Positions 10,965-14,150 of a stretch of DNA of 43,231 nucleotides are shown here, piece after piece. Under the pieces are notes generated by a model. The model did no database searches. It was not told the DNA's origin and saw only the letters and a program-made list of their open reading frames with translations. Position 1 is the first letter of the stretch, and every line of letters begins with the position of its first letter. Origin of the DNA: Dysgonamonadaceae bacterium (GTDB lineage: Bacteria > Bacteroidota > Bacteroidia > Bacteroidales > Dysgonomonadaceae); the NCBI GenBank assembly GCA_031269865.1, contig JAISYO010000188.1, positions 1-43,231 of the forward strand, in the 5' to 3' direction. Position numbers and translations under genes: made by a program.

Positions 10965-11038
10965 GGTCCGGTAGCTCAGCTGGATAGAGCAACAGCCTTC
11001 TAAGCTGTGGGTCTTGGGTTCGAATCCCAACCGGATCA
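10965..11038 (+). tRNA. tRNA-Arg (anticodon TCT)
   Basis: Acceptor GGTCCGG/CCGGATC, anticodon stem ACAGC-CTTCTAA-GCTGT, T-arm TTGGGTTCGAATCCCAA. Confidence 0.95.
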
Positions 11039-11089: not shown

Positions 11090-11554
11090 TTACCTTTTCC
11101 AAAATCTTTCCGTCCAATCCACCATCGCGCCCCCTTCGATGCGGTAGAACCGTTGGTTGGTAGTCGGCGAATCAAGTCCGCCGAGGGCTTCTATGTAAGC
11201 ACCGAGTTTGATGTAGTCGAATGTTTGCAAGGTGCTGTCGGAAAATGTATTACGCCCCGAATACCATGCCGTTTTGACACGCCTGCCGGTTGCGTTGCGC
11301 AAAAAAACCGACAAGCGTTCCACTTCCTGCGGATTGGAATCGCCACCCATAAAACAAACGCACGTGATGGCGTCCCGGTACTTTTCGAGCAAGACCGCCA
11401 ACACATTTTCGTCCAATATCTCGCCAATATCTTCCATCAGATGAGGACTATGACAGCCCTTGCAAGCGTTAGGGCAGCCTGAGATATTGATTGCCAACGT
11501 TACTTCGCAGGGGACTTCCTGAAAAACGATGTCATAATTATGAAACCTTAGCAT
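11090..11554 (-). CDS. nrdG: Anaerobic ribonucleoside-triphosphate reductase activating protein
   Basis: Radical SAM CPNACKGCHSPHLM motif; overlaps the nrdD 3' end. Confidence 0.93.
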   Translation of the reverse strand: MLRFHNYDIVFQEVPCEVTLAINISGCPNACKGCHSPHLMEDIGEILDENVLAVLLEKYRDAITCVCFMGGDSNPQEVERLSVFLRNATGRRVKTAWYSGRNTFSDSTLQTFDYIKLGAYIEALGGLDSPTTNQRFYRIEGGAMVDWTERFWKR

Positions 11555-13622
11555 AATAACGACGCGCAGCCTCTTCCTGCCGGGGTTGTGAGAAATTGCT
11601 AACCCTTTTCATATAGCCTATGATGCGGGTTAAGTAGTCCACGTTCTGACTTTTGCACACGGGACATTCTTTCAAGTTGCGCTTGTCGATGTGTCCGCAA
11701 TCGTTGCAAACCGTGTTGGGAATGTTGAAGGTAAAATAGTTGCAGCCTTCCTGCGTAGCCACCCGCAACAGTTGTGCGTACTGTTCCTTGCTCAAATGTT
11801 CTTCCAGATTCAGATGCAGGGCAGAACCACCCGTCAGGTGCTCGATGTATTTTCGTCCGTGCAGTCGGAATTTGTCGATGACGTTCAGCGACTCGTCTTC
11901 CACGATGTAGAAATAGCTGTTGTAGCAATCGCGTTTTACCGCGTATCCGTCGCGCCTGTCCCATTTGGCGTGTTTCACGCCCACGTTTTCGGCGGGAATC
12001 ATTTCGCAGTTGAACATTACGTCTTTGCTGCGGTATTTCTTGTTGTACTGCTCGATGATGCCGAGCACCTGCTGCACAAAACTCTCATATTTAGGATTGT
12101 CGCTGATTTCTATTCCCAAAAACTCGGCGGCTTCCACCAAGCCGTTCACGCCGATCGTCAGGTATTGTCGCGAAAGATTGATGTAGCCGGCATCGAACAA
12201 GGGCAACATACCTTTTTCCTGCATATATTTCAAGTTCTCGTTGTACGCCAACTGCACCTTGTGCACCAAATCGACGATTTCTTCCAAATAGAACTGAAAA
12301 AGGATTCCTTTTTTGGCTGCGTGCTGAATGCAGCGGTTCAAATTGATCGTCAGAACGCTTTTCGAGCCGGTGGAAACACCGCCAGCCCCCAGCGTGTAAC
12401 TGAATCCGTTGTCTTGAATTTCGTTGCGCAAACGGCAGCAACTGCTCAACGAATCGGCGTTGTCGCTTATGTACGTGAAGAACGAATGCCCTTCGGCATA
12501 CATTTCAGCCGTGAAGTCGCCATATTCCTTGTCTTTGGGTGCGCCGTCCTCAGTCAGCAAAGCCATCGTTTCCACCGGGAAAGTCAGGACGGAACGGGTT
12601 CTTTCGCGGTTAAACCAGCTCATAAAGCGTTTTTGCAACCAACTGATCGATTCCCAATCCGGCTTGCTCCCATCAGGAAACACAAAATTCCCGAAGAGGC
12701 TTTCAAAATAGTAACGATCGTAATATGAGATGTTCCAAAACACCGCTTGGAAATTCCGCGCCCCGGTGGGTTGGTTGATGGAATAGACAATTTGCTCGAA
12801 ATGATCGGTAATTACCTTGTCAATCGTGCGTTGCCGTTTGGATAAATCAACCACCCGATCGGCGTTCAGGTAGTAATCCCTGCCGTATTCCAAGCCGATG
12901 AAATAATTCATATACATAAGAAATTCCGGTGTGGCGCAAGCCCCGCTCAGCATACTCGAAACCATAAAAACCATATTCACGAAGCCGCCGCAAAATGATC
13001 GCAGGTTGGTGGGGGCTTTCGAGTTCCCCCCGATGGACGTTGTGCCACCAATCAGCCAAGGGTACATCGTAATGCTTGCGCAGTAGTTGGCAAGGCTCGT
13101 TTCGTCGTTTTTGTAGATGTAGTGGCTGTTCAGCAAGTCGACGTATTTGTCGGCGACTTCTTTCCCGAACATTTCCTTGATGCGATCAGTCAGCATTCGG
13201 CGGTTGAGCCGTATGAAATTGGATTTGGGCAACTCGCCGATGAGCGTAGCCATATTTTTGTTTTCCACATTGGCGTTGGCGTCGAACTTGCTACCCGAAG
13301 CGGCGTTCGAAGCATCGCAGTAGTCCATCAGGAATGTGAGTTTGTCGCGCACTTCGCGATCTTCCAAATGCTTTTGACGGTAAAGCATATAGGCTTTGGC
13401 TACGGCATAATACCGTTCTGCCATCAGGGCGATTTCCACCTGATTTTGCACTTCTTCCACGGTAATGTCGTTCGTGATGTTTACGCGGCAAAGGATATTG
13501 CCGATTACGTCCTGCGTGGCATAACTGCCTACCGACAAAAACGCCTTCGATATGGCGTTCTTGATTTTCTCGATGGAAAAAACTTCTTTTTTCCCGTCTC
13601 TTTTGACAATGAATAATTCCAT
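11538..13622 (-). CDS. nrdD: Anaerobic (class III) ribonucleoside-triphosphate reductase
   Basis: ATP-cone N-terminus MELFIVKRDGKKEVFSIEKIKNAI; C-terminal zinc motif CNDCGH...CPVCKS; RIIGYMKRV end; start set at 13622. Confidence 0.95.
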   Translation of the reverse strand: MELFIVKRDGKKEVFSIEKIKNAISKAFLSVGSYATQDVIGNILCRVNITNDITVEEVQNQVEIALMAERYYAVAKAYMLYRQKHLEDREVRDKLTFLMDYCDASNAASGSKFDANANVENKNMATLIGELPKSNFIRLNRRMLTDRIKEMFGKEVADKYVDLLNSHYIYKNDETSLANYCASITMYPWLIGGTTSIGGNSKAPTNLRSFCGGFVNMVFMVSSMLSGACATPEFLMYMNYFIGLEYGRDYYLNADRVVDLSKRQRTIDKVITDHFEQIVYSINQPTGARNFQAVFWNISYYDRYYFESLFGNFVFPDGSKPDWESISWLQKRFMSWFNRERTRSVLTFPVETMALLTEDGAPKDKEYGDFTAEMYAEGHSFFTYISDNADSLSSCCRLRNEIQDNGFSYTLGAGGVSTGSKSVLTINLNRCIQHAAKKGILFQFYLEEIVDLVHKVQLAYNENLKYMQEKGMLPLFDAGYINLSRQYLTIGVNGLVEAAEFLGIEISDNPKYESFVQQVLGIIEQYNKKYRSKDVMFNCEMIPAENVGVKHAKWDRRDGYAVKRDCYNSYFYIVEDESLNVIDKFRLHGRKYIEHLTGGSALHLNLEEHLSKEQYAQLLRVATQEGCNYFTFNIPNTVCNDCGHIDKRNLKECPVCKSQNVDYLTRIIGYMKRVSNFSQPRQEEAARRYYAKVS

Positions 13623-13756
13623 AATATACAACCTGTTATAATAAAGTTCATTAGAACCCGTTTCTTGGCAGGACACGAAAGGAAAGAGGTTAAGAAGTTG
13701 GTATAAAACCAGTTCTGCGCCGCCTTTCGCCCGAAAGCCCCAGTAATATGCAACAT

Positions 13757-13945
13757 TGGGCAGGTATTCTGACTTGTTTCGGGCAGTGCGCCTTCCCGTC
13801 GGAAACCGACAGTGGCATAAGAATGCACTTCCTTTTAGCGAAACTTACAGCTACGGGGATAGTCCCTGATTTTCACAGGATTCCCTTTTGGAAACTTAAA
13901 AAGTTTCTTCATCTCTGTTGCCTTCATTGGCAACGGAAAGAACCA
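13757..13945 (-). promoter_or_regulatory. Cobalamin (B12) riboswitch upstream of nrdDG
   Basis: Minus strand reads GGGAATCCTGTGAAAATCAGGGACTATCCCCGTAGCTGTAAG ... GCCACTGTCGG ... GGGAAGGCGCACTGCCCG ... AAGTCAGAATACCTGCCC, the characteristic B12-box architecture; upstream boundary approximate. Confidence 0.92.
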
Positions 13946-14150
13946 AATGTCGAAGACAAAGATATGTATTATTTTTGTTTCGTCCGCCACGCCGGACGTT
14001 AAGTTATTAACAGTTTTGGGAACCGTTTTAATTTTTACGAAATAATTTAAATCCCAAAACCAATGAATACTCATAAAATATTGAATATAAATATATTACA
14101 TCAAAATATCAAAATTTAGTGCATTACAACTAATCACGATAAAACAGATG

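Follow-up and report, generated by a model that had tools for sequence, protein, structure and literature searches.

A cobalamin riboswitch in the leader of the class III ribonucleotide reductase operon nrdDG of a Dysgonamonadaceae bacterium

The nrdDG operon and its leader

The window, a 43,231-nucleotide stretch of contig from a Dysgonamonadaceae bacterium, carries on its minus strand the genes of a B12-independent, oxygen-sensitive class III anaerobic ribonucleotide reductase (RNR) and its activase. The reductase gene nrdD (11538..13622) was identified by TIGR02827 (978 bits, cut-off 568), PF13597, PF03477 and its translation, which contains an ATP cone, a CxxC...CxxC Cys4 site, and the glycyl-radical motif RIIGYM near the C-terminus. 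It overlaps by 17 nt with nrdG (11090..11554), whose product is a radical-SAM activase with a CxxxCxxC motif in its translation and a TIGR02826 score of 170.6 bits (cut-off 151.7). Both family scores exceed their cut-offs, bearing out the original prediction that a class III nrdDG operon lies here. The start of nrdD is most likely the ATG at 13622 rather than the listed GTG at 13676; the ATP cone begins at the former (MELFIVKRDGKK...).

Upstream of nrdD, a cmscan of the window returned a full-length match to the Rfam cobalamin riboswitch RF00174 at 13962..13742 on the minus strand, covering model positions 1 to 189 of 189. Its score of 94.1 bits, with an E-value of 2.7e-22, against a gathering score of 31.5 bits excludes chance, and the aptamer is complete. 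Apart from this riboswitch, the window matches Rfam only with a tRNA (10965–11038). The RF00174 match ends 120 nt before the nrdD start and, since nrdD and nrdG follow directly downstream on the same strand, the aptamer sits in the leader of the nrdDG operon. A cobalamin riboswitch had been predicted at 13757–13945, about 135 nt upstream of nrdD, and the Infernal match confirms it; the distance is exact when counted from the ATG at 13622 to 13757. The predicted span is in the right place but slightly short, as the aptamer including P1 extends over about 13950..13749.

The anatomy of the aptamer can be followed along the minus strand. The prediction had quoted two strings as B12 box, both correctly placed on this strand, but only the second, AGTCAGAATACCTGCC (13759..13774), is the B12 box. 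The first, GTGAAAATCAGGGACTATCCCCGTAGCTGTAAG, located at 13876..13844, belongs to the P4-P5 region. The P5/L5 element at 13851..13862 (CUA-UCCCCG-UAG) holds in its loop the CCCG that forms one half of a kissing loop and is present in 53/53 aptamers, while the conserved core segment GCCACTG (13810..13816) is found in the relatives' aptamers too. The other half of the kissing loop is supplied by the P13/L13 hairpin GCUUUCGGGCGAAAGGC (13722..13738, minus strand), whose CGGG loop is complementary to the L5 CCCG. Among 53 leaders, 52 have CGGG shortly 3' of the aptamer; in a control stretch, the final 56 nt of these leaders, the motif turns up in 4 of 53. Kissing loops between L5 and L13 have been described for cobalamin riboswitches (PMC9600662), and the window has both elements. 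The two halves are nearly invariant, so covariation lends the contact no support.

At the 5' edge of the RF00174 match, and overlapping it, TATCTTTG (13957..13964, minus strand) fits by pattern match TAnnTTTG, the −7 element of Bacteroidetes promoters. No clear −33 TTTG was found upstream of it. The pattern precedes all four cobalamin riboswitches of the source genome. Among the nrdD riboswitches, 51 have their aptamer start present in the sequence, and in 45 of these the pattern lies no more than 4 nt from it. At the place expected for a −33 box, immediately 5' of the nrdD promoter element, is an inverted repeat, CGTCCG-GCGTGG-CGGACG (13981–13998), in single copy in the window; it is possibly an operator.

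The remainder of the leader, 3' of P13, is where the leaders diverge from one another. In the window, CCTTTCG (13676..13682, minus strand) is complementary to the P13 3' arm (CGAAAGG) and may compete for it (local fold −12.7 kcal/mol, z −2.1). Pairing of this arm with a downstream pyrimidine stretch had seemed conserved by eye, yet the duplex in the window is no better than shuffles (z +0.4), and it is therefore listed only as possible; across the leaders, z falls below −2 in 11 of 50, with a mean of −0.9. In several leaders the P13 5' arm and the P6 3' strand (CCCGAAA/UUUCGGG) also seemed by eye able to exchange partners, a reading that was rejected because normal aptamer pairing explains the P6 strand.

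The cobalamin economy of the source genome

The draft assembly of the source genome comprises 2.39 Mb in 202 contigs and is 86% complete. A class II, B12-dependent RNR, NrdJ, is encoded on contig C67 (TIGR02504, 592 bits), which bears out the prediction of an nrdJ in the genome. No class I RNR small subunit was found in this 86% complete draft; judged from the draft, NrdJ and NrdDG are the only two routes to deoxynucleotides.

Counting that of the window, the genome holds four cobalamin riboswitches. In keeping with the prediction, which proposed a search for B12 transporters, two of them, on contigs C56 and C181, precede BtuB-like TonB receptors; behind each receptor come a probably BtuG-like DUF5074 protein and a PKD_3 protein. 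The last of the four, on C92 (L016:3413-3644), has no receptor and stands before a DUF4988/DUF5074 protein that may be a stand-alone lipoprotein binding B12. Neither cobM/cbiF nor a corrinoid adenosyltransferase (PF01923, PF02572) was found in the draft. Receptors under riboswitch control together with the absence of cobM/cbiF fit a B12 scavenger, which the source bacterium probably is. The locus would be a clear case in which a cofactor gates the choice between isozymes, in a bacterium that probably scavenges that cofactor.

Distribution among the Bacteroidales

Named Bacteroidales genomes supplied 80 nrdD loci for the comparison with relatives, 79 of them with enough upstream sequence and one genome counted twice (L030/L046). 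RF00174 precedes nrdD in 52 of the 79 loci and is absent from 27. The genome encodes nrdJ at 50 of the 52 loci with the riboswitch versus 19 of the 27 without it (Fisher p 0.002). When kinship is allowed for, using independent pairs taken from the NrdD tree, the association is not significant; it is therefore consistent with the prediction and no proof of it. A class I small subunit was found in 3 of 50 cases. In this order the combination of a riboswitch and nrdDG with nrdJ is genuine and occurs widely.

On the NrdD tree the riboswitch must have been gained or lost 17 times, with 8 or more of these changes on well-supported branches. Two leaders appear to preserve what such a loss leaves behind. 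The nearest NrdD relative, from a Prevotellaceae MAG (88% identical; L018:1900-2001), has retained the promoter element, P2-P4 and part of P5. Before nrdD of Parabacteroides sp. PH5-46 (L024:1820-2001), the promoter, P2 and a P13 remnant are left. We read both, from their sequences, as putative riboswitch remnants.

Other NrdD families, retrieved as a comparison by a search with NF006732, come from genomes in the family and order to which the window belongs, and the same switch stands before two of them. One is a PRK07111-type NrdD accompanied by NrdG (L009 typed; L006, L008 and L010 alike by NF006732 score), the other a PRK08270-type NrdD accompanied by NrdG2 (L011 and L012 typed; L103 by similar scores). 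All of these genomes carry nrdJ, while the one complete genome that has such an nrdD without a riboswitch (G032, locus L005) lacks it. This pattern agrees with the isozyme logic, in small numbers. That two further NrdD families with different activases stand behind the riboswitch indicates that the switch has been retained in front of differing enzymes. The Bacteroidales thus place one switch before three NrdD/NrdG families, and have gained or lost it many times with its remnants still recognisable, so that the control has persisted, or returned, across replacements of the enzyme.

Two local variations were observed at these loci. At L100:447-1240 (genome G010), riboswitch and nrdD are separated by an additional reading frame, short and lipoprotein-like. 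In two Bacteroides genomes (L049:1340-1544 and L050:1346-1550), a second cobalamin riboswitch lies next to that of nrdD, in divergent orientation.

Proposed control and its alternatives

These elements make up a model that we consider very likely: a riboswitch with an L5-L13 kissing loop precedes nrdDG, a corrinoid lowers nrdDG expression, and NrdJ then makes the deoxynucleotides. The transcript would begin just after the TAnnTTTG element at 13957–13964 and run through the riboswitch into nrdD and nrdG. With corrinoid plentiful in the cell, the aptamer would bind it, the L5-L13 contact would lock P13, and nrdDG expression would fall, leaving dNTP supply to the B12-dependent class II NrdJ. With B12 scarce, the aptamer would stay empty and nrdDG would be expressed. 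The gene company and the riboswitch anatomy are observed at the locus; we infer that a ligand binds, in which direction control works and at which step. Counted against the model are the U at 13766, the lack of a convincing terminator in the window, the adenosyltransferase not found in the 86% complete draft, and the 19 riboswitch-less nrdD loci in genomes with nrdJ.

That B12 lowers nrdDG expression is most likely by analogy with the B12 riboswitches measured in Bacteroides thetaiotaomicron, which repress about 70-fold at 37 nM cyanocobalamin (PMC6143338) and for which premature termination is the proposed mechanism (PMC12751083). At the step controlled, transcription termination seems somewhat more likely than translational control, an outcome of lesser though real probability in which the ligand-stabilised P13 would alter pairing of the leader at 13623-13721 and mask the start region. 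Translational control would suit a window leader without a strong hairpin and U-tract, where a consensus scan between the aptamer and the nrdD ATG found no intrinsic terminator, and in Chlorobi the genes behind cobalamin riboswitches are reported to be regulated mainly at translation (PMC8620254). It is opposed by the leader set as a whole, in which hairpin-plus-U-tract structures average −8.2 kcal/mol versus −4.1 kcal/mol for shuffles, by the plain terminator-like hairpins in the leaders of the relatives L036 and L019, and by the distance of the competing segment from the start codon, over 50 nt. The best terminator-like hairpin of the window leader (−12.3 kcal/mol, z −1.5, weak U-tract) competes with P13, which would permit the reverse polarity: a ligand-stabilised P13 that blocks the alternative hairpin at 13728..13676 so that B12 raises nrdDG. 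Such an ON switch is very improbable, being physiologically senseless for a B12-independent isozyme beside nrdJ and contrary to the repression exerted by the sister riboswitches of Bacteroides (PMC6143338); the poor showing of the competing duplex against shuffles in the window also tells against it.

The variant base in the B12 box allows two further explanations. The aptamer agrees with 68 of the 69 columns of at least 90% conservation in the relatives' alignment, and its single departure is position 13766 in the J6/3 joiner, a U (T in the DNA) where relatives have G in 48 cases and A in 2. A change at so nearly invariant a position might weaken or abolish binding, leaving nrdDG on at any B12 supply, and no more than remnants of the riboswitch are left in the nearest NrdD relative, L018, and in L024. 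Decay of this kind is nonetheless improbable: the remaining 68 conserved columns, L5 and L13 are all intact, and the same AATA box recurs in the C181 riboswitch before a BtuB-like receptor, which makes decay private to this aptamer, or a sequencing error, less plausible and an assembly error at 13766 unlikely. The other two riboswitches of the genome do not have it. The J6/3 change from AGA to AUA is thus found in 2 of the 4 riboswitches of the genome (that of nrdD and one btuB-like) and in 0 of about 60 others compared; 1.54 Mb of one same-genus genome gave no B12-box match. There is a slim chance that the change alters which corrinoid is preferred or how tightly it is bound, and that both operons therefore answer to another corrinoid or concentration than the remaining two.

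Comparison with known systems

Borovok et al. (2006) reportedly demonstrated by experiment that the Streptomyces nrdABS operon carries a B12 riboswitch through which B12 represses the B12-independent RNR. That enzyme is likewise under a B12 riboswitch, but it is of class Ia, whereas the RNR of the window is of class III.

Isozymes of B12-dependent enzymes form a standing class in the cobalamin regulon (PMC3766115), and this kind of arrangement has been known from other bacteria since 2003–2004; the window is a further instance. For Desulfovibrio vulgaris and Desulfuromonas, whose genomes likewise encode nrdJ, B12 elements upstream of class III nrdDG were described in 2004, and the same repression logic was proposed (PMC545781, citing Rodionov et al. 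2003). Those bacteria belong to another phylum, and their B12 synthesis genes are also under B12 elements (PMC545781). A literature search, thin on subscription papers, found no paper on nrdD riboswitches in Bacteroidales.

In Chlorobium, a cobalamin riboswitch was described in the nrdD 5' leader in 2021, with btuB genes controlled too (PMC8620254). There, control is described as mainly translational and cobalamin synthesis genes are present (PMC8620254), while the source genome of the window is without cobM/cbiF. The btu loci of Bacteroides thetaiotaomicron, a member of the same order, share the riboswitch family and have receptor genes like those of the C56 and C181 loci, but their riboswitches control B12 uptake rather than an isozyme (PMC6143338, PMC12751083).
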